From a virus, in the IMG/VR virus record IMGVR_UViG_3300042891_001197, positions 1 to 22,628 of that record: DNA of 22,628 nucleotides. One strand, given 5' to 3'. Under the pieces are notes generated by a model. The model worked only from the letters and a program-made list of their open reading frames with translations, searched no databases and was not told the origin of the DNA. Every line of letters begins with the position of its first letter. Position 1 is the first letter of the stretch. A program made the translations under genes and the position numbers. Below, one piece after another: positions 227 to 10,745 of the stretch.

Positions 227-391
227 AGCCGCACGACCTTCTGGAGTAGTGTTTGTCGCATAGCGATGGCGTTGTTGTAGGGTCAAGATGTTTCCGGGAC
301 ATCAGAGACAAACCAGAAAAAAGGCTTCGGTCAGTACTGTGGGAAGTACAGATCGAGAAGACTAGGACAAGGTTCGAATCCAAGCCGAAGC
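227..391 (+). ncRNA. Candidate structured RNA with a tRNA-like 3' domain
   Basis: This non-coding stretch follows a perfect late promoter. Domain 1: TTCTG 239-243 pairs with CAGAA 314-318, and GTTTGTC 251-257 pairs with GACAAAC 307-313. The two helices stack across a 7-base bulge and enclose the hairpin GATGT 287-291 / ACATC 299-303. Domain 2: GCTTCGG 324-330 pairs perfectly with CCGAAGC 385-391, like a 7-bp acceptor stem. Directly inside its 3' strand is a 17-base T-arm-like element with loop TTCGAAT (373-379), and near its 5' strand is a D-arm-like hairpin GTAC 334-337 / GTAC 346-349 with G341-G343 in the loop. The T stem has two A-A mismatches and no anticodon stem can be drawn, so it is not a normal tRNA. 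It could be a decayed tRNA gene or an unknown phage RNA. Confidence 0.35.
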
Positions 392-395
392 GAAT

Positions 396-2459
396 TCAAA
401 CAAACAGTGGACAATCTAAAATTTTAGTTGGATCACTCGTAGCAATTTCTACAAATCTTCTATAATTATGTTCTAACATAGGCTCTTGCTTTTTGTAAAG
501 GTAATACAACTTATTGTTGTTATATTTTTGAAGTTTTAATAATAATTTAATAATACTACTGATATTACAATCATCTAACTCTTTAAAATCAAACAACATA
601 GCAGGCGTGTAAAATCCTAATTTTTCTAATACATGAGTCGCAGAAGGATCAGTGTTTAAAACGAACGGTCTTTTACCTATTATAGGTTTCCAAGTTTTTT
701 CTGTCAAGTGATATTTTTCATCAACATTTGTTTCGCTCACTATGATGCAATAAGACCTGTTCCATATATCTAAATCTCCTAAACTAAAAATATCTTCTGG
801 ACGACTAAATCTGTAATCGCTACAATGTTCAGGATAGTTAGCAGGATCTAAATTTTTTACTTTTTCAAACCAATCTTGTTCTGTGTTTCCTGTCATTGCA
901 TCAACTGCAGGAAAAATTCCCTTTTCATAAGTTACATATCCTGACGATAAAAGATTGTTATCAATCAATTGTTGTACGAGTTCAAATCTATGCGGTTTAG
1001 GTTTTCTATTATAACTCAAGTACAAGTGTTTGATTGATGTTAGAGTTGTATCTATGTTTTGATTATTGTTATACAGAGCGTTGGGGAACCAGCTATGCCA
1101 ATTCTCTAAATCATAACCTACAAGACTAATGTCAAATCTTTCCCTAACTAATCCAAGATAAAAATCACTGCGAGTAATCCAATTTACCGCGTCTATGCTA
1201 CCGCAAAGCCAAATTTTGCAAGTTTCAGGCTTGTGGTTATTTGACAGTATCATCTGTATATATTCTAGCCCTCCCTTGTGTGGAAACCACGTTAGATTTA
1301 TTAAAAAATTATATGGATAAATACTTTTAATAGAGATTTCATTTTTTAGATTTTCAATCCAAGATGTCTCATATCTACGTATCTCTTGTGGATTACTTGA
1401 ATAAATGTTTCCTAATACAAATACTGCTTGCACGATTTTTTTACCCTGGGGCCAATATAAAATTTTAGTTCTATCTAGATCACAAATCTCTTTTAAACGT
1501 TGTCTATTCGCTAACAATAAAGGTAATTGTTTTTCATAGAGATTGTACAATTCTGTTTTATTTAATGTTTTTAAATATGACACTAATCTAATGATAGATT
1601 CTATAGAACCGTTTTCTAAGTTCAAGTCATTAAAAAAGTCTACCGTAGTATAAAATCCCATTTTCTTTAAGATATTATAAAGATTGGAATGACCATTTAT
1701 AATGAAAGGTCTAAGACCTATTATAGGCTTATAGGTTTTTTCTGTAATGTGATATGGATTTGTATCAGTTGTCTCGCTAATTATATTCAAATACGCACTA
1801 TTCCAAATGTCTAAATTGCCTAATGATGTTGCATCTTCTGGTCTTGAATATCTTAAATCTGGGTTACCTTTGTAGTTATAAGATTGTTGTATAATTATCT
1901 TATCCCAATAATCTGTTTCAGTGTTACCAGTAGCCATATCAATTTCTGGAAATACACCATGCTGGTATGTGACATGTCCCACATCATGCAAGTTATTTTC
2001 TATAAGGCTCTTGACTAGATTATATCTATGCAAATGTGGTTTTCTATTATAACTTAGATAAATGTATTTTATATTCTCATCTAACTTAGCAACAACATCT
2101 TTATTATATTGGTAGACCCAATAAGGATACCAGCTACTCCAGTGTTCTGGACTGAATCCAACAGTAGACACTGTAAAGCCTTTGTCTATAAATTTTTGAT
2201 AAAATTTTTCTTCCAATGGATCAACACAACTTACGAACCAAAATTTACAAAGTCTTGGATTTTCAATTTCAGCATAAATGTCGTATTCATGTTGATCTTC
2301 ATTGACGCTTTCCCAAGTCAAATTGATAACATAATTTTTAGGAAATTCGCTTGTCTTAGCAATTTCTATCCATAAGTTATGCAACCATTCAAGTTCATAA
2401 TTACCCATGTCTTGCGGATCGCAAGTATACCATTTTCCATATCTTATGACAGATCGCAT
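396..2459 (-). CDS. Tandem-duplicated glycosyltransferase-like protein (GT10/fucosyltransferase-like motifs)
   Basis: 687 residues built of two homologous halves with a period of about 346. YLSYNRKPHLHR (134-145) recurs as YLSYNRKPKPHR (480-491). SET..(8)..TEKTYKPIIGLRPFI (228-253) recurs as SET...TEKTWKPIIGKRPFV (575-600). The S-E-...-TEK-...-G-x-x-PF pattern resembles the donor-binding region of alpha-1,3-fucosyltransferase-type enzymes (motif FENS...YVTEK...G.VPV), so a sugar transferase is the best guess; this is inferred from the motif only. The key acidic and Lys residues are kept in both halves, so both may be active. A diverged single-domain relative is encoded at 12948-14030. There is no Shine-Dalgarno site. 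A late promoter box ends 5 bases before the ATG, predicting a leaderless mRNA. The gene is transcribed against its neighbours. Likely role: glycosylation of a virion or surface component. Confidence 0.75.
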   Translation of the reverse strand: MRSVIRYGKWYTCDPQDMGNYELEWLHNLWIEIAKTSEFPKNYVINLTWESVNEDQHEYDIYAEIENPRLCKFWFVSCVDPLEEKFYQKFIDKGFTVSTVGFSPEHWSSWYPYWVYQYNKDVVAKLDENIKYIYLSYNRKPHLHRYNLVKSLIENNLHDVGHVTYQHGVFPEIDMATGNTETDYWDKIIIQQSYNYKGNPDLRYSRPEDATSLGNLDIWNSAYLNIISETTDTNPYHITEKTYKPIIGLRPFIINGHSNLYNILKKMGFYTTVDFFNDLNLENGSIESIIRLVSYLKTLNKTELYNLYEKQLPLLLANRQRLKEICDLDRTKILYWPQGKKIVQAVFVLGNIYSSNPQEIRRYETSWIENLKNEISIKSIYPYNFLINLTWFPHKGGLEYIQMILSNNHKPETCKIWLCGSIDAVNWITRSDFYLGLVRERFDISLVGYDLENWHSWFPNALYNNNQNIDTTLTSIKHLYLSYNRKPKPHRFELVQQLIDNNLLSSGYVTYEKGIFPAVDAMTGNTEQDWFEKVKNLDPANYPEHCSDYRFSRPEDIFSLGDLDIWNRSYCIIVSETNVDEKYHLTEKTWKPIIGKRPFVLNTDPSATHVLEKLGFYTPAMLFDFKELDDCNISSIIKLLLKLQKYNNNKLYYLYKKQEPMLEHNYRRFVEIATSDPTKILDCPLFV

Positions 2460-2505: not shown

Positions 2506-3750
2506 ATGGTTAATCATGATTTGATCAAGTATTTTGAATATCACGGTGATAGTCGTGGAATACCCTTTATTCCTAATAGAGAATGGAAGAATCTTATCAA
2601 ACAATATGATAAGGACAGCATAAAAGATAGTCTTGCTGAATATATAATTTCTAATAATATTCCATTTCCTACTAAAAAAATATCGTATGATGATTTAAAT
2701 CGTCTATTCACGAAATTTACTAAAACATCAATGATGGGACATTATAAGAATGTACAAAATGTTTTAGAAAAGTTTGATTACAAATATAAGTATAACCAGA
2801 ACCCGTTAGGTGTGATTGATAAGTCTCACGCATACAATAGCGTAAGTAATTATTTTCAACAACTTAATCGCATGAAGTGTGGTAGCAATCTTGTTGATAG
2901 CCCATATGATATATGGCATGACAAAACAAAGTTGTCACGTATGAATTGGCACTTCTGGCGATTGGGCGCATTAGGTAATAGTGATATTGATAATAGTACA
3001 TTTCGCAGCGCCTTTCGTATAGGAACCTATACAGCAACACAATTTAAACCTACTGTTGCGAAAGCATTATATGAGAAACATAAGGCACATAAAGTATTAG
3101 ATACTAGTTGTGGTTGGGGTGATAGATTAGCAGGCTTCTATGCTACGTCACATACAGAACTGTATGTTGGATGTGATCCCAATCCTGAAGTCTATGAGAC
3201 GTACAAAGACCAGTGCTTAGAATATGAAAACATGTTGGGCTGTGATAGTGCTGTACTACAAGACAAGGGCGATCATTTTATTGTATTAGGCACAAAAAAG
3301 GTAATCATTTATAATTTGCCTAGCGAAGATGTTGATTGGAGTAAGCACGAAAACACATTTGACTTTTATTTTACAAGCCCTCCCTACTATGAGACAGAAC
3401 GATATGCGGCTAATCATAGCAGCACACAAAGTTATATACGATATCAGACATTTGATAGTTGGAAACATGACTTCTTTTTCAAAGTCAATCGCATGGTATG
3501 GGACACACTATCTGACAATGCTTATATGATGATCAATATCATTGAACCTAGAATCGCAAAGGGCACACGTTTAAACTTATGTGATGACATGGTTGATGAC
3601 ATATTGACTTACCAAAATGCATACTATCTAGGTAAGATCGGTATGCGTATGCAGGCTAGGCCACATGCTATTGTAGAGGCAGATAAGAATAGTATATTTG
3701 TAGAGCCAATTTGGGTGTTCAGAAAAAATAATAATCACTATGATATTTGA
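2506..3750 (+). CDS. DNA methyltransferase (SPPY-type, N4-cytosine or N6-adenine)
   Basis: 414 residues. The SAM-binding motif I is DTSCGWGDR (199-207, after the strand KVL). The catalytic motif IV is TSPPYYE (290-296), of the S/D-P-P-Y class found in N4-cytosine and N6-adenine amino-methyltransferases. Residues 1-180 carry no recognised motif and are probably a target-recognition or helical region. The order motif I then motif IV is as in the gamma/beta-like classes. Such enzymes modify phage DNA against host restriction or for regulation; the target sequence cannot be read here. No restriction endonuclease lies beside it, so it is an orphan methylase. The ATG is chosen because it falls at +1 of a consensus sigma70 promoter and no earlier in-frame start is present. 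Confidence 0.82.
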   Translation: MVNHDLIKYFEYHGDSRGIPFIPNREWKNLIKQYDKDSIKDSLAEYIISNNIPFPTKKISYDDLNRLFTKFTKTSMMGHYKNVQNVLEKFDYKYKYNQNPLGVIDKSHAYNSVSNYFQQLNRMKCGSNLVDSPYDIWHDKTKLSRMNWHFWRLGALGNSDIDNSTFRSAFRIGTYTATQFKPTVAKALYEKHKAHKVLDTSCGWGDRLAGFYATSHTELYVGCDPNPEVYETYKDQCLEYENMLGCDSAVLQDKGDHFIVLGTKKVIIYNLPSEDVDWSKHENTFDFYFTSPPYYETERYAANHSSTQSYIRYQTFDSWKHDFFFKVNRMVWDTLSDNAYMMINIIEPRIAKGTRLNLCDDMVDDILTYQNAYYLGKIGMRMQARPHAIVEADKNSIFVEPIWVFRKNNNHYDI

Positions 3751-3799
3751 TATATACTACTGCTTATAAAAAACACACACATACACACAGGAGGTAATT

Positions 3800-4024
3800 A
3801 TGAGCAAAACACCATACGAGATCCGTCTGGATCTACTAAGACTGGCTAAAGAAAGTCTCTTTGAGCCATACTTTTACGCAAGGTCAAATAAGGAACTAGA
3901 GTGGAACGCACAACGGGATGCAAATCCTTATGCACCATTTCCAGAAATGCCTACAGCACCCACATCAGAAGATATTATTGCCGAAGCGAAAAAACTAAAC
4001 GAGTTTGTTAGCAAGGGCGAATAA
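3800..4024 (+). CDS. Small conserved phage protein, unknown function
   Basis: 74 residues, acidic and probably helical, starting MSKTPYEIRLDLLRLAKES and with a Pro-rich middle (NPYAPFPEMPTAPTSEDI). The start is fixed by a near-perfect ribosome site, AGGAGG, 5 bases before the ATG. From memory, small proteins with a K/T-PYEIRLD start and a SEDII.EA..L..FV end recur in T4-like marine phages, without a known role. It has no membrane segment, signal peptide or Cys motif. A sequence resembling a degenerate late box (TTATAAAAA, near 3765) lies upstream. Its stop codon lies next to the late promoter box at 4020-4027. Confidence 0.8.
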   Translation: MSKTPYEIRLDLLRLAKESLFEPYFYARSNKELEWNAQRDANPYAPFPEMPTAPTSEDIIAEAKKLNEFVSKGE

Positions 4025-4027
4025 ATA
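4020..4027 (+). promoter_or_regulatory. Late promoter box AATAAATA ahead of the membrane peptide and tmRNA
   Basis: AATAAATA overlaps the end of the preceding gene and is followed by CCTAT and ATG at 4033, the same 5-base spacing seen at 2459, 4522, 5005 and 20899. It is the only clear promoter upstream of the tmRNA gene, so it likely drives both. Confidence 0.5.
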
Positions 4028-4032
4028 CCTAT

Positions 4033-4155
4033 ATGGATAGCACAGAAACATTATTGAAAGTTTCTATTGCGGCAGTTGGGGCATATATTTTGTCCCATCT
4101 GCTCTATAGATTAGCACTAGAAGTCTGGTGTATAGCGTACGGATTAGTTTATTGA
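4033..4155 (+). CDS. 40-residue predicted membrane peptide
   Basis: The reading frame 4033-4155 encodes 40 residues: a short polar start (MDSTETLLK), a hydrophobic stretch of roughly residues 10-25 (VSIAAVGAYILSHLLY), a second moderately hydrophobic segment and a C-terminal GLVY. There is no Shine-Dalgarno site, but the ATG stands exactly 5 bases after a late promoter box, as for larger genes in this window, which is the main argument that it is real. The stop codon lies just before the start of the tmRNA acceptor piece, so one transcript would carry both. The function is unknown; a small membrane protein is all the sequence shows. It may be a chance frame. Confidence 0.45.
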   Translation: MDSTETLLKVSIAAVGAYILSHLLYRLALEVWCIAYGLVY

Positions 4156-4156
4156 T

Positions 4157-4475
4157 ATGACTGTAGGAAGTGAGGAGAAAGATGCTTTGGACGCGGGTGC
4201 GAATCCCGCCATCTCCACCAATAGATTGATTGATGAACCTCGCAATCTGTTTTTTACAGAGCGTGAGTGGAGTAGAATAGTAGGTTGGGATCTTCCCCCA
4301 ATGGAAAACACAAAGGGGATGAACAGTTTCGACAGGGCAAGTAGTACCCAAGCAGACAGTCCGAAAGACGACTGACGTAATCAGCGTAAATCAAAGTAAA
4401 CGCAAATGATGAAACATTTGCTCTAGCAGCCTAAGGGCAGTTAGATGGGGTTGACGACCTTATTAACCAATAGTC
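4157..4475 (+). ncRNA. ssrA: Circularly permuted (two-piece) transfer-messenger RNA
   Basis: The gene order is permuted: the acceptor (3') piece comes first, then a spacer, then the coding (5') piece. Acceptor piece, about 4157-4220: T arm GCGGG (4193-4197), loop TGCGAAT, CCCGC (4205-4209), then CATCTCC (4210-4216), A and encoded CCA (4218-4220). Spacer to be removed: 4221-4314. Coding piece from 4315: GGGGATG (4315-4321) pairs with CATCTCC over 7 bp (one G-U), followed by the tmRNA-typical AACAGTTTCGAC. Helix P2 joins the pieces: CCAAGC 4348-4353 with GCTTTGG 4184-4190 (one bulge), and ACAGTC 4356-4361 with GACTGT 4159-4164. A tag frame at 4402-4434 follows. The outer ends are approximate. 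tmRNA rescues stalled ribosomes with SmpB and tags nascent chains for proteolysis. No smpB is in the window, so host SmpB would be used. Confidence 0.93.
4402..4434 (+). other. tmRNA proteolysis-tag reading frame (ANDETFALAA, stop)
   Basis: GCA AAT GAT GAA ACA TTT GCT CTA GCA GCC TAA starts at the expected resume codon after AAAGTAAAC. With the charged Ala the tag is AANDETFALAA, close to the E. coli tag AANDENYALAA and ending in the LAA that ClpXP-type proteases recognise. An upstream hairpin CTGA 4372-4375 / TCAG 4381-4384 lies where pseudoknot PK1 sits. Confidence 0.92.
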
Positions 4476-4476
4476 A

Positions 4477-4503
4477 GGTGGGGACTTTTGTCCCTACCTT
4501 TTT
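4477..4503 (+). terminator. Rho-independent terminator of the tmRNA unit
   Basis: GGTGGGGAC (4477-4485), loop TTTT and GTCCCTACC (4490-4498) form a 9-bp stem with one G-U pair, followed by TTTTT (4499-4503). It closes the tmRNA transcription unit just before the next late promoter. Confidence 0.9.
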
Positions 4504-4508
4504 ATCGT

Positions 4509-4516
4509 TATAAATA
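4509..4516 (+). promoter_or_regulatory. T4-type late promoter (perfect TATAAATA)
   Basis: Exact TATAAATA, then TCTGG, then the ATG at 4522. It follows the tmRNA terminator directly, so the hydroxylase-like gene must be transcribed from here. The predicted start site is the A of the ATG. Confidence 0.75.
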
Positions 4517-4521
4517 TCTGG

Positions 4522-4992
4522 ATGAAAGTTCACTTTATAGACAGGCTTGATAAAACATTTGTAAATGTTAATAAGTTATTATTAGAATTTGAATTATTTA
4601 AGGATAGGATAATTGACGTTACTAATCACGGTAATGCTGTGCTAGTTCAGAAGAAATTTCATTTGATTTTAAATAATAAAGAATCAGAGGATTTAAACAA
4701 GGTTGAATACACACTTTCTGTGATAAACCAACTAAAAGAACATTTAGAATTTGATAGTGTGACATATAGATTTGTGATGCCTAATACATGTTACAATTGG
4801 CATAATGACGCAGGCGAGATTTGTCTACATATACCTCTAATAACTAATCCTGGCTGTCACTTTGTATACGACCATAGAGCATTTTCTATGCCCGCAGACG
4901 GGTCGGTCTATGTCGTAAACAATGGCAGAATGCATACTTTTGTCAATGCCGGAGCGTCCCCCAGATTGCATCTAACCTTTGAAAAACTCTAA
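4522..4992 (+). CDS. Aspartyl/asparaginyl beta-hydroxylase-like 2-oxoglutarate/Fe(II) dioxygenase
   Basis: 156 residues. The C-terminal half has the double-stranded beta-helix signature: YNWHNDAGE with H94-x-D96 as iron ligands, a distal H138 in NNGRMHTFVNAG, and R148 in SPRLHLTF as the likely 2-oxoglutarate-binding Arg. The order and spacing fit the Asp/Asn hydroxylase family, which oxidises side chains using O2 and 2-oxoglutarate. Marine T4-like phages often carry small 2OG-Fe(II) enzymes of unclear substrate. Residues 1-85 lack a recognised motif. There is no ribosome site; the ATG lies 5 bases after a perfect late box. The substrate is not predictable from sequence. Confidence 0.75.
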   Translation: MKVHFIDRLDKTFVNVNKLLLEFELFKDRIIDVTNHGNAVLVQKKFHLILNNKESEDLNKVEYTLSVINQLKEHLEFDSVTYRFVMPNTCYNWHNDAGEICLHIPLITNPGCHFVYDHRAFSMPADGSVYVVNNGRMHTFVNAGASPRLHLTFEKL

Positions 4993-4999
4993 CTAAATA
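4992..4999 (+). promoter_or_regulatory. Late promoter box ACTAAATA
   Basis: ACTAAATA overlaps the stop codon region of the hydroxylase gene and is followed by CATTT and the ATG at 5005 (5-base spacing again). It departs from consensus only in the first bases. Confidence 0.5.
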
Positions 5000-5004
5000 C
5001 ATTT

Positions 5005-6402
5005 ATGGATATTAGTGAGTTAGAAGATTTTAAATTATCTGATGCAGTCAAATTTCATAATGAACTGAATCCAAACTTGTGGGAAAATAATAAACTTAAA
5101 CCAGAAGTAAAAAAGCAGTTATTAAAAATAGCGAATGACTTTATACTAGAATTAGGAGTAGCAATACCTAAAATTCAAGATATCACGATATCAGGAAGTA
5201 ATGCTGCTTATAGTTATACGCCATACAGCGACTTAGATTTGCACATATTGGTTGATTTCAATAAACTTCCAGATGACGAAATTTACCAAGAACTGTTTAC
5301 TGCTAAAAAGAATTTATATAATGACGAACATGACATTTCTGTACATGGAGTCCCGGTAGAATTATACGTGCAAGATAGCAATCAACCTCATGTAAGCCTT
5401 GGTGAATATAGTATAGTAAATGATGATTGGATAAGAATTCCTAAAAAGAAAAAAGCAAATTTTGATCAAAATGAAACAAGAGCCAAATACGAAAAGTTAG
5501 GCACGATGATAGAACTCGCGTTGAAGTCAAATAGTTTAGAAAAAGTTGAAAAGGTCCTAGACGTATTAAAAAGATATAGAAAGGCAGGATTACAAAGTAC
5601 GGGTGAGTTTGGACCGGAAAATTTATCTTATAAAGCACTACGTAAATTAGGTTATATTCAAAAACTTTACGATTACAAAAATGAATTACACAGCAAAGAA
5701 TTAAGTTTGGAAGATTATGATCCAACTTATAATGTAAAAGAAAGCGTGAAGTTTATTGAAGGCACCAATTGCAAGAATTGCGTATGGTGGAAAAAAGATA
5801 GCGAAAAACCTGTAGGTAAAGATGAACTAAACAAGTATGGTGGATTGAAACCACCTAATAAAGAATATATCGCTATGAGCAAGCGTGTTGATCTAGTCAC
5901 ATTGCCTGGTAAAGATACTGTAAAAGTAAAAGGGTTTTGCTACCACAAAGATATCAATGATTGGGTGACTGAGCGCATGTGCTGTGCTAAGTGGGACGGC
6001 AAAGGTGTATTACGCGACTATAAAGGCGAAAGCCCATTGATGGAGTCTAAAGAAGATGCAGTGCGTAAAATACAAAAGTTTCTAAACAAAAAATATGATG
6101 CTAATCTTGATGTTGATGGAGTGTTAGGACCTCTCACACTAAAGTCAATAAACAAGTTTATGCCTCAGGCTAAGAAAGCAAGTGCGCCGGAGCCAGAGAA
6201 AACTACAAGTGTTCAAGGTAAAAAAGTAAAAGAAGCAAGCGGCTATATACCTAGCGAAAAAGAAAAGAACGATCCGCGATTTAAGACAGCACTTACAGTA
6301 GATGTAAAACCAGATAGTATTTTAAGCAATGCTAAAGCATTTAAATTCAAAACAAGTAGAGCAGGAATTCCGCCTACCGCAAAAACAAATGGAAAATTAT
6401 GA
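5005..6402 (+). CDS. Nucleotidyltransferase fused to Cys-rich and peptidoglycan-binding-like regions
   Basis: 465 residues, mosaic. About residues 40-135 form a polymerase-beta-type nucleotidyltransferase core: GSN (64-66), SDLDL (75-79, the metal-binding Asp pair) and VELYVQ (118-123, candidate third acidic residue E119). A helical section follows to about 240. Residues 255-330 contain C256-x-x-C259, C312-Y-H and C326-C327, a possible metal or disulfide site. Residues 350-388 (DAVRKIQKFLNKKY...DVDGVLGPLT) match the peptidoglycan-binding PG_binding_1 pattern. The tail GYIPSEKEKNDPRFKTALT reminds me of a C-terminal tail recurring in marine T4-like phage proteins (memory only). The substrate of the transferase is unknown. 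There is no Shine-Dalgarno site; the ATG is 5 bases after a late box. The stop overlaps the next gene by 4 bases. Confidence 0.68.
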   Translation: MDISELEDFKLSDAVKFHNELNPNLWENNKLKPEVKKQLLKIANDFILELGVAIPKIQDITISGSNAAYSYTPYSDLDLHILVDFNKLPDDEIYQELFTAKKNLYNDEHDISVHGVPVELYVQDSNQPHVSLGEYSIVNDDWIRIPKKKKANFDQNETRAKYEKLGTMIELALKSNSLEKVEKVLDVLKRYRKAGLQSTGEFGPENLSYKALRKLGYIQKLYDYKNELHSKELSLEDYDPTYNVKESVKFIEGTNCKNCVWWKKDSEKPVGKDELNKYGGLKPPNKEYIAMSKRVDLVTLPGKDTVKVKGFCYHKDINDWVTERMCCAKWDGKGVLRDYKGESPLMESKEDAVRKIQKFLNKKYDANLDVDGVLGPLTLKSINKFMPQAKKASAPEPEKTTSVQGKKVKEASGYIPSEKEKNDPRFKTALTVDVKPDSILSNAKAFKFKTSRAGIPPTAKTNGKL

Positions 6403-8212: not shown

Positions 8213-9307
8213 ATGGCTATTACTGATAACATGACAGTTACATCTGTCCAGGCTCGCAAGGCCCTTCTCAAGGCATTCAAGGCAAAACGTCCGGTGTTTC
8301 TCTGGGGTCCTCCCGGCATCGGCAAGTCTGAGGTCGTGAGTGAAATCACTAACGAACTTGGTGGCTTGATGATTGACTTGCGCATGGCGCAAATGGAGCC
8401 CACTGACTTGCGTGGTATCCCTTACTACAACAAAGATAACGGTCGCATGGACTGGGCTCCCCCAGTCGATCTACCTGATGCTGAACTTGCTAGCAAGTAT
8501 CCCGTCATCGTTCTCTTTCTTGACGAGATGAACTCTGCACCGCCCGCTGTTCAGGCAGCAGGTTATCAGTTGGTTCTCAATCGCCGTGTAGGTAAGTATG
8601 TACTGCCCGATAACGTTGTTATCGTCGCGGCAGGTAATCGTGAATCTGATAAGGGCGTGACGTATCGTATGCCTATGCCCCTCGCAAATCGTTTCTTGCA
8701 TCTTGAGATGCGGGCAGACTTTGCTTCATGGCAAAACTGGGCTGTGAACGCAGGCATTCATACTGACGTTGTTGGTTACTTGTCGTTCGCTAAGAATGAC
8801 TTGTATGACTTTGACAACAAGTCCAGCAGCCGTGCATTCGCTACCCCGCGTAGTTGGACATTCGTTAGCCAGATTCTTGAAGATGAGGCTGACACCGACA
8901 ACGATACTATGTTCAATCTTGTCGCTGGTGCTGTCGGCGAAGGTCTTGCCGTCAAGTTTATGGCACACCGCAAGGTGAGTAGCAAGATGCCTAACCCGAG
9001 TGATATCTTGTCGGGTAAGGTCAAGGACCTCAACGTCAAAGAAATTTCGGCTATGTATTCCTTGACTACTTCAATGTGTTACGAATTGCGCGATGCAATT
9101 GAGAACAAGGTCGATATGAAGAAGTTCCATACTATGGCTGATAATTTCTTCAACTACATGATGAGTAACTTTGAGACTGAACTTGTAGTGATGGGTGCTA
9201 AGGTCGCACTCAAAACTTTCAAGTTGCCCATCGAACCCAGTCAGTTGAAGAACTTTGACGAGTTCCACAAGAAGTACGGTAAGTACATCGTCGAGGCTGG
9301 TAACTAA
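8213..9307 (+). CDS. MoxR-type AAA+ ATPase
   Basis: 364 residues. Walker A is GPPGIGKS (32-39), Walker B is VIVLFLDEMN (98-107), and the sensor region is VVIVAAGNRESD, followed by MPMPLANRF, all typical of the MoxR/RavA branch of AAA+ ATPases. These hexameric ATPases usually work with a von Willebrand A-domain partner encoded next door, acting as chaperones or in metal-centre assembly. Here the partner is the metallopeptidase/VWA protein at 9438-10745, 130 bases downstream. The start is set by AGGAG 10 bases before the ATG and a sigma70-type promoter. Base use is clearly richer in G+C than in the sugar genes (for example 37 of 60 bases in 8281-8340 against 15 of 60 in 14341-14400). The role in the phage cycle is unknown. 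Confidence 0.88.
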   Translation: MAITDNMTVTSVQARKALLKAFKAKRPVFLWGPPGIGKSEVVSEITNELGGLMIDLRMAQMEPTDLRGIPYYNKDNGRMDWAPPVDLPDAELASKYPVIVLFLDEMNSAPPAVQAAGYQLVLNRRVGKYVLPDNVVIVAAGNRESDKGVTYRMPMPLANRFLHLEMRADFASWQNWAVNAGIHTDVVGYLSFAKNDLYDFDNKSSSRAFATPRSWTFVSQILEDEADTDNDTMFNLVAGAVGEGLAVKFMAHRKVSSKMPNPSDILSGKVKDLNVKEISAMYSLTTSMCYELRDAIENKVDMKKFHTMADNFFNYMMSNFETELVVMGAKVALKTFKLPIEPSQLKNFDEFHKKYGKYIVEAGN

Positions 9308-9437: not shown

Positions 9438-10745
9438 ATGAGTGACGTTATTCCCGGCACTAAGGGTTCTAAGAAGTCTAAACGCAATAAGAAGTTTGAC
9501 AATCTTATCGGCCCGACTGACCCGAAAATTGATGCTCAGGCGCGTGAGCGATTGGTGACAGCACGTATTGGTCTACTGTTGCGTCATTCGTTTTTCGGTA
9601 ATCTCGCTACTAGACTTCAACTAATTAATGCTGACGATTGGTGCGGTACTGCCGCGACTGACGGCAAGAAATTTTATTACAATAGTAAATTCATCACTCT
9701 GCTCAAGCCTAAAGAAGTTGAATTCTTGGTTGCGCATGAGGTGCTTCACGTTGTGTATGATCACATGGGTCGTCGCGGCGAACGTGACCCACAAATTTTC
9801 AATATCGCAAATGACTATGCGGTCAATGCTGACTTGAAACGTCACAAGGTCGGTCAGTTTATCACTAGTGTCCCTGCATTGTACGAACAAAAGTATGACG
9901 GCAAATCGTCAGAAGAAATCTATGATGACTTGATGCAGAATGTTCAAAAGATTGACATGGACCAACTGATTCAACAGTTGCTCGACGAGCATATGGACGG
10001 TGATGGCGAGGGTGAAGGTGAGGGCGAGGGTGAAGGTGAGGGCGATAAGAAGGGAAAAGGTAAACGTCCCACTATGACTGCTGAAGAGCGCGAGGCTCTC
10101 AAGCAAGAAATCAAGCAGGCTGTAATCAATGCTGCTCAGAGTGCTGAAGCAGGTAGTCTGCCCGCAGGTGTTGAGCGTCTTATCAAAGACATGACTAACC
10201 CTGTCATGCCCTGGCGTGAGTTGATCCAGACTAATCTGACTAGTGCTATCAAGACTGACTTTAGTTGGATCAAGCCCAGTCGTCGCGGTTGGCATATGGA
10301 TGCAGTAATGCCCGGCATGACTCCCGGTGAAGAAATTGATGTTGACGTATTCATTGACTTGTCAGGTTCTATTAGCGACACTCAAGGTAAGGCATTCTTG
10401 ACTGAAATTGCTGGCATGATGAGTGCGTTTGATGGTTATCGTATCAATGTGCATTGCTTTGATACTGAAGTTTATAACCCGCAAACTTTCACTAGTGAGA
10501 ATCTTGACACTATTGAGGGCTATCAATTAATGGGTGGTGGCGGTACTGACTTCACTTGTATCTTTGATCATTTGAAGAAAGAGGGTCGCGTGCCTACACG
10601 ATTGATCGTATTCACAGACGGTTACCCCTTCGGTAGTTGGGGCGATGAGAACTACTGTGATACGACATGGATCATTCATGGTGATCCTAACCCGAACCCA
10701 CCGTTCGGTACTTTTGCACTTTATGACGATCATAAAAAGCATTGA
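9438..10745 (+). CDS. Putative zinc metallopeptidase with C-terminal VWA-like domain (DUF2201 type), MoxR partner
   Basis: 435 residues. The N-terminal domain has H100-E101-V-L-H104 in VAHEVLHVVYDH, a zinc-peptidase HExxH motif, as in the DUF2201 putative metallopeptidase family. The C-terminal domain is VWA-like, with the metal site DLSGS (307-311), GGGGTDF (366-372) and VFTDGYP (391-397). A Gly-Glu spacer (residues 188-202) followed by a Lys-rich patch links them. This pairing with a MoxR ATPase is a standard bacterial arrangement, where the VWA protein acts as substrate adaptor. In the phage it may remodel or cleave a host or virion protein; that is inference. It has its own sigma70 promoter, and GGAG lies 9 bases before the ATG. 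The next gene overlaps its end by 23 bases. Confidence 0.86.
   Translation: MSDVIPGTKGSKKSKRNKKFDNLIGPTDPKIDAQARERLVTARIGLLLRHSFFGNLATRLQLINADDWCGTAATDGKKFYYNSKFITLLKPKEVEFLVAHEVLHVVYDHMGRRGERDPQIFNIANDYAVNADLKRHKVGQFITSVPALYEQKYDGKSSEEIYDDLMQNVQKIDMDQLIQQLLDEHMDGDGEGEGEGEGEGEGDKKGKGKRPTMTAEEREALKQEIKQAVINAAQSAEAGSLPAGVERLIKDMTNPVMPWRELIQTNLTSAIKTDFSWIKPSRRGWHMDAVMPGMTPGEEIDVDVFIDLSGSISDTQGKAFLTEIAGMMSAFDGYRINVHCFDTEVYNPQTFTSENLDTIEGYQLMGGGGTDFTCIFDHLKKEGRVPTRLIVFTDGYPFGSWGDENYCDTTWIIHGDPNPNPPFGTFALYDDHKKH
10005..10040 (+). repeat. Two exact 18-base direct repeats coding Gly-Glu
   Basis: GGCGAGGGTGAAGGTGAG occurs at 10005-10022 and again at 10023-10040, followed by a partial third start. It encodes the flexible acidic GEGEGE linker between the peptidase and VWA-like domains and is likely to vary in length by slippage. 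Confidence 0.9.

Follow-up and report, generated by a model that had tools for sequence, protein, structure and literature searches.

The window, a stretch of 22,628 bases from a virus record, contains an intact permuted (two-piece) tmRNA gene at positions 4159-4503. We consider it very probable that this is a true permuted ssrA gene, belonging to a jumbo-phage relative, and, jointly with this, that it encodes a working two-piece tmRNA. Most likely, its product would act as an ordinary two-piece tmRNA together with SmpB of the host. The gene is of a known kind: according to the available part of PMC9004378, two-piece tmRNAs of Methylophilales phage Melnitz and related marine phages were published in 2022, so that the novelty attached to the gene in the initial annotation was overstated. 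What is new here is that the permuted tmRNA is tied to a jumbo-phage family, of which the window is a clean, intact case. A class of long tags found in relatives is more novel than the window gene itself.

A permuted tmRNA gene in the window

When the window was searched with all Rfam models, two tmRNA models matched over their full length and above cut-off: RF04321 tmRNA_permuted (132.3 bits, cut-off 47, E 4e-26, positions 4159-4434) and RF01850 beta_tmRNA (125.3 bits, cut-off 84, E 3.3e-38, positions 4104-4501), the latter being the best-scoring clade model. With these E values, which apply to the whole window, a chance match is excluded. The available text of PMC11915505 states that RF04321 covers only the pairs of the tRNA domain. 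ARAGORN called a permuted tmRNA at 4128-4525 with the tag ANDETFALAA. The two-piece phage tmRNA that the initial annotation had proposed, naming covariance models of permuted tmRNA as a check, is thus backed by Rfam, by ARAGORN and by covariation across the pieces (see below). No riboswitch reached the Rfam cut-off in the window.

All parts of the gene lie on the plus strand. The acceptor (3' tRNA-like) piece was delimited at 4159-4220 by the RF04321 match, the sequence and the extraction of the pieces (4159 being the start of the model match); it comprises P2 strands, the T arm (4193-4209), the acceptor strand, A73 at 4217 and an encoded CCA at 4218-4220. Between this CCA and GGGGATG sits an intervening segment of 94 nt (4221-4314), which is expected to be cut out of the precursor. 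The 5' part of the coding piece (4315-4401), taken from the Rfam alignments, contains GGGGATG, the conserved GTTTCGACAGGG and the P2 partner strands, and ends at the resume codon. The tag frame with its stop codon occupies 4402-4434, with GCA as the resume codon (ARAGORN), and the 3' part of the coding piece (4435-4503) is supported by the RF01850 match to 4501 and by a terminator scan, which found a terminator-like last hairpin at 4476-4499 followed by a T run (two such sites in 3600-5100, with 0.8 expected).

Pairing between the two pieces is complete in the acceptor stem, where CATCTCC (4210-4216) and GGGGATG (4315-4321) form seven of seven pairs, including G3-U70 (G4317 with T4214). G3-U70 is the identity pair by which alanyl-tRNA synthetase recognizes an RNA for alanine charging, and it is a defining feature of tmRNA. 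P2 forms in two blocks, GACTG 4159-4163 with CAGTC 4357-4361 (from the Rfam alignment) and TGCTTTG 4183-4189 with CAGGGCA 4333-4339 (from RNAalifold on 24 phage sequences). The T loop reads TGCGAAT, with G and not T at the second position of the usual TTCGANT. The initial annotation had described the 94-base spacer, the CCA end at 4220, the coding piece from 4315, the 7-bp acceptor stem, P2 in two cross-piece blocks, the ANDETFALAA tag and a terminator, and each of these was recovered, the coordinates included; G3-U70 and the T-loop change are additions to that description. An open frame of 40 codons and a stop at 4033-4155, with a stretch that looks hydrophobic by eye, ends just 5' of the tmRNA; it may be co-transcribed with it.

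An assembly artefact was rejected: the same stretch is present in other contigs at 99.2-100% identity (L108, 99.96% over 10,178 bases; L111, 100% over 13,114; L110, 100% over 9,210; L102, 99.2% over 9,573), which makes an assembly error unlikely. There is also no sign of a leftover of prophage excision; no part of the gene is missing, and phage families are matched by several proteins encoded nearby. The three genes adjoining the tmRNA (396-2459, 3800-4024 and 4522-4992) have no PHROG match. Further downstream, a MoxR-type AAA ATPase on the plus strand (8213-9307; phrog_1297, Pfam AAA_5 and relatives) served as the family marker for synteny, and it is followed at 9438-10745 by a protein with a metallopeptidase-like and a VWA-like domain. 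The best matches of both proteins among phage isolates are to jumbo phages, for example Pseudomonas phage PA5oct and Sinorhizobium phage Phosso, all at less than 60% identity, and IMG/VR has relatives of the ATPase on contigs as long as 364 kb.

Rfam also gave a match to the COG2908 RNA motif (RF02939, 67.2 bits) at window positions 227-271. TATAAATA is located at 214, just upstream of it, and the stretch that follows it, at about 330-395, shows a 7-bp closing stem (by eye) and the T-arm-like GGTTCGAATCC; on the strand of the motif only short open reading frames occur before 2506. RF02939 is above cut-off upstream of the tmRNA in six of eight related loci scanned (L002, L003, L006, L087, L108 and L127), two of which (L087 and L108) are near-copies of the window. 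The spacer of the L288 tmRNA (match 1638-1654, minus strand) holds a partial copy of the window stretch that follows the motif, with GGACAAGGTTCGAATCC exact. One literature query for COG2908 RNA found no paper.

Conservation of RNA structure across the family

The two pieces were resolved by script in 55 of 57 genes (the window gene and 54 of 56 relatives); of the other two relatives, L267 pairs by eye (GGGCCAT with ATGGTCC) and L522 did not resolve. In all 55 resolved genes the acceptor stem forms seven of seven pairs with G3-U70, counts that lean upward because the extraction rule demanded at least six pairs and rewarded G-U. Acceptor pairs in the whole set include GGGGATG/CATCTCC, GGGCCTG/CAGGTCC, GGGCCGG/CCGGTCC and GGGGAAG/CTTCTCC, and the spacers of resolved genes range from 5 to 273 nt. 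P2 pairing played no part in the extraction. For 24 sequences of the window's ATPase clade (aligned without L255, whose ATPase is identical to that of L253), RNAalifold gives the acceptor stem, the T stem and P2. The cross-piece acceptor pairs covary in these sequences, and a single pair can occur in as many as four Watson-Crick types; pairing is kept in 24 of 24 at the acceptor and in 19 to 24 of 24 in P2, while the sequence varies.

Most T loops in the family are of the form TTCGANT, TGCGAAT or GGCRGNN and a few differ from these; the TGCGAAT of the window is shared by relatives. All 30 permuted genes from the best matches among 150 Pseudomonadota genomes, which we take to be alphaproteobacterial, have a GGCRGNA loop.

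Distribution and synteny in jumbo phages

Whole virus records with a relative of the window's MoxR-type ATPase were searched with RF04321, and 56 of 130 gave a match above cut-off (24/50, 12/30 and 20/50 by record set, the set of 30 leaving out three other added records that were below cut-off). These records are the first 80 ATPase relatives and 50 of 53 further contigs, the short L459, L477 and L500 being left out and near-copies not thinned. The 74 records without a match above cut-off, in a search that sought the permuted form only, are probably for the most part fragments; most of the 130 are shorter than 200 kb and may be fragments. Among records of at least 200 kb, 12 of 13 carry a permuted tmRNA, the exception being G016 (220 kb). 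In all 56 of these records the tmRNA shares the strand of the ATPase, and in 53 it lies upstream of it within 30 kb (median 6.3 kb); in the remaining three it would be upstream only if the records are circular. Record G005 has two weak RF04321 matches close together (L275 and L277; 40.9 and 35 bits), perhaps a degraded tmRNA.

With stricter filters, a permuted tmRNA was found in four of eleven phage isolates: Stenotrophomonas phage DLP_6, Alcaligenes phage QDWS595 and Synechococcus phage BUCT-ZZ01, which had been picked for matching the window tmRNA, and Sinorhizobium phage Phosso, which had been picked by protein similarity together with the seven isolates in which the same filters gave none (PA5oct, Atu_ph07, SCTP-2, Vibrio phage 2.275, XaC1, Serratia phage BF and Bacillus phage G). 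The permuted tmRNAs of DLP_6, BUCT-ZZ01 and QDWS595 (L296, L297 and L298) have no tmRNA annotation in the record stretches examined. That of Phosso (L310) has a spacer of about 410 nt and the tag ANDNVSTKVALAA. Stenotrophomonas is, to our knowledge, outside the lineages with a described two-piece tmRNA, and therefore phage and host tmRNA forms may differ there.

No SmpB match was found in 34 related records by a search that was positive in 10 of 14 control genomes. The use of host SmpB, as suggested in the initial annotation, fits this result, and the host protein is presumably what the phage RNA would rely on.

Origin of the gene and its tag

The tag ANDETFALAA was sought by an exact degenerate pattern in bacterial genome contigs and in viral contigs, with the form of each gene called by ARAGORN; second, overlapping permuted-type calls with an unrelated tag were set aside (bacterial L177, L189, L206, L231 and L243; viral L120). 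The 118 bacterial loci, mostly from genera such as Paraburkholderia, Caballeronia, Pandoraea, Colwellia and Thalassotalea, comprise 114 one-piece genes, four uncalled and no permuted gene with ANDETFALAA. The viral contigs yielded 51 loci, which include several contigs of one phage: 41 are permuted, two are one-piece and eight were uncalled. This raises the question why the permuted phage gene has a tag that, among bacteria, was found in one-piece genes only.

Permuted genes from the order of Pandoraea, which was taken to be Burkholderiales, are among the closest known systems (RF01850; loci L312-L323). They share with the window a short tag style and the best-scoring clade model. The spacer of the window is 94 nt, compared with 24-42 nt in those 12, which have other tags, for example ANDERFALAA; ANDETFALAA is permuted in none of the 118 bacterial loci, and the tmRNA tree places the window inside neither of the two groups that the Burkholderiales permuted genes form. 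This tree of 124 short RNAs was built by a quick method, with 23 of the 114 one-piece genes, and has long branches and many weak forks. In it, L257 and DLP_6 join the window with a support of 96, and L252 follows at 94. The neighbours of these four (86) are the one-piece ANDETFALAA genes and, of the 12 permuted genes from Burkholderiales, three; the other nine are apart. Four jumbo-phage genes and that of Phosso fall with alpha-type genes (99). DLP_6 (L307), permuted like the window, differs from it in being a 168-kb phage with a different tag, ANDDSFAPMAIAA. A host could not be assigned from the tmRNA: in the order of Pandoraea 21 of 399 sampled genomes are above cut-off, 16 of them at more than 120 bits, and the tree, made from short RNAs, is weak.

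The tmRNA and ATPase trees conflict, and therefore genes or parts of them have been exchanged. Acquisition of RNA genes from hosts is known in phages, and a decaying or passenger copy from a host, without function in the phage, would fit both this mobility and the one large relative, G016, that has no match. A useless copy would be hard to reconcile with the acceptor stem and G3-U70 being intact in all 55 resolved genes, with covariation across the pieces, with matches in 12 of the 13 records of at least 200 kb, or with the strand shared with the ATPase in 56 of 56; we regard it as highly improbable.

Promoter and timing

The initial annotation had placed the gene under a late promoter and suggested late use, for which we found no support. 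The exact late-type motif TATAAATA occurs three times in the window (2.9 expected), and the nearest copy, at 4509-4516, is downstream of the gene; a late promoter for the window gene was accordingly not retained. Upstream of the gene, AATAAATA, with one mismatch to TATAAATA, is located at 4020-4027 and has a counterpart upstream of the related L257. Either motif is present upstream of 15 of 55 family genes, compared with 3.8% of control segments, and several of these overlap a sigma70-type promoter. The upstream position and the family enrichment leave a late-type element possible, with AATAAATA at 4020-4027 as a candidate only. In 8 of 55 family genes a sigma70-type promoter lies upstream, at a distance of 49-52 nt to a fixed point, compared with 76 of 3300 control segments (2.3%); none occurs at this spacing in the window, where no convincing promoter was found upstream.

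Function and relation to known systems

In the most likely reading, host tRNA-processing enzymes would cut one transcript at about 4314/4315 and at 4220, giving two pieces that would pair through the acceptor stem and P2. Charged with alanine and bound to host SmpB, the RNA would enter stalled ribosomes, add ANDETFALAA and free the ribosomes, and the tagged product would pass to host ClpXP or a similar protease; from the ALAA end of the tag, degradation of such products is plausible. The likeliest gain for the phage would be that ribosomes are kept available while mRNAs are cut or truncated during infection.

Alternatively, the phage tmRNA could be a decoy that takes up SmpB in competition with the host tmRNA and blocks trans-translation in the host or diverts it, a role that has been discussed for the tRNA-like fragment in mycobacteriophage DS6A. 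Such a fragment inhibits tmRNA when expressed in E. coli, according to the available parts of PMC11915505 and PMC4131195. DS6A, however, has little beyond the tRNA-like domain, as far as the available text of PMC4131195 describes it, whereas the window gene keeps a tag frame, a stop codon and a downstream region, none of which a decoy would need. This is the least probable of the readings considered here, and that of an ordinary two-piece tmRNA is preferred.

Several surveys give this gene its setting. In the available part of PMC9004378, 402 of 18,146 phages encode 133 unique tmRNAs, of which 53 are two-piece. The same text describes the Melnitz tmRNA as alphaproteobacterial-like, downstream of an early promoter and with a glutamine riboswitch. 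Melnitz, like the window, represents a tailed phage with a permuted ssrA, and a phage smpB goes unmentioned in the portion of PMC9004378 available; the window differs in having beta_tmRNA as its best clade model, no riboswitch at cut-off and jumbo phages as relatives. Huge phages with tmRNA and SmpB are described in the available part of PMC7162821. They resemble the present family in having tmRNA in phages larger than 200 kb, and that part of the report makes no mention of the permuted form or of tag classes; the family differs from those with SmpB in the lack of an SmpB match in the 34 records searched here. The accessible text of PMC11915505 counts 97,179 unique tmRNA sequences, 79 of them from phages, with 10 as the commonest tag length. 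As far as their available parts show, PMC4131195 gives an older list of phage ssrA genes, and PMC12656738 and PMC11242549 report tmRNA in Bradyrhizobium phages and in Sinorhizobium jumbo phage AP-J-162.

A class of long tags

Fourteen of the 56 relatives (L260, L266, L283, L286-L290, L512, L515 and L518-L521) have a tag of 28-33 amino acids, and the other tags read have 10-14. The core of the long tag is mostly GEVTVSGKNVKFSAR, with VTVSGKNVKF as the common core (an example of a whole tag is AKASTGEVTVSGKNVKFSARTAQRQSLAV); L512 and L518 have the same layout around another core. All 25 members of the window's ATPase clade are short-tagged. On the ATPase tree, the short and long states amount to five changes, at least two of which are forced by well-supported branches. 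In its body, L290 is 87% identical to the short-tagged L268 and 58% identical to L260, while the tag DNA of L290 is 90% identical to that of L260. Judged from these sequences, the long tag moves between tmRNA bodies.

A pattern made from the common core identified 72 loci in viral contigs (L324-L395), all of which were read by eye as tmRNA tags with resume context. Permuted genes with 7 bp and G-U were resolved at 59 of them and not, under the extraction rule, at 13; a TCGA-type motif lies within 260 nt upstream in 70 of the 72. These loci encode 41 distinct peptides of 27-29 amino acids in 47 distinct DNA versions, 32 ending in LAV and 11 in FAV; collecting the loci through a peptide-based pattern biases the conservation seen in them. 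Among 18 records that were searched, the long tag occurs once each, at the tmRNA, in the 8 known carriers, and is absent from the other 10.

Selection was estimated on 13 distinct long tags of the ATPase-linked set, which had been found by the RNA model and not by peptide. The pN/pS of the core, uncorrected for multiple hits and from pairs that are not independent, is 0.50 in the tag frame versus 1.02 and 1.04 in the other frames (0.62 for the whole tag). The low ratio in the tag frame argues that the peptide itself is under selection. Within the tag frame there is also a possible five-pair hairpin, whose innermost pair is pairable in 39 of 40 distinct cores, two of them through a two-sided change, and RNA constraint may also play a part.

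The long tag as a known protein motif was rejected: it has no family in PHROGs and only weak or chance-level matches elsewhere. A tblastn search of 50,697 phage records gave no match at E <=10, which is a weak test for so short a query. Of 398 Pseudomonadota genomes, seven had a match at E <=0.01 with about four expected by chance, all of them weak (E 0.001-0.008), and the seven weak, repeat-like matches to PDB sequences include none with a stretch that passes alone. The predicted structure consists of two facing strands (pLDDT 61.8, pTM 0.17), too weak to rely on, and the predicted fold gave a single match in the PDB, at E 9.8. Mycobacteriophage Bxz1 also has a tmRNA with a long tag, and therefore a long tag in a phage is no novelty in itself. 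The GEVTVSGKNVKFSAR tag went unmentioned in the paper text and search listings covered here, and it may have been published before in sequence tables or supplements.

The wide differences between tags in the family, with the class of 28-33 amino acids in 14 of 56 relatives, would suit a main role in replacing the host tag, so that products of truncated mRNAs, phage or host, meet another fate, the window copy having kept a host-like tag where relatives changed theirs. For the window gene there is no sign of such re-targeting, because its tag is an ordinary degron-like one, and the short tags of the 25 ATPase-clade members are the same in kind. We think tag replacement unlikely as the main role, and it is compatible with the window gene acting as an ordinary two-piece tmRNA.

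Implications for jumbo-phage biology

The presence of a permuted tmRNA in nearly all of the longest records of the family suggests that ribosome rescue is a lasting requirement of these phages and no chance acquisition. More tentatively, and with more doubt than confidence, we suggest that the jumbo-phage tmRNA is a platform with exchangeable tags, whose long class (27-33 amino acids, a weakly predicted beta hairpin) might give proteins from broken mRNAs a fate other than ordinary disposal by ClpXP, such as being bound by a partner from the phage or the host. If this is true, the exchangeable long tag would represent trans-translation re-programmed by a virus, and the long-tag class offers a direct way to ask whether viruses alter the role of the tag.
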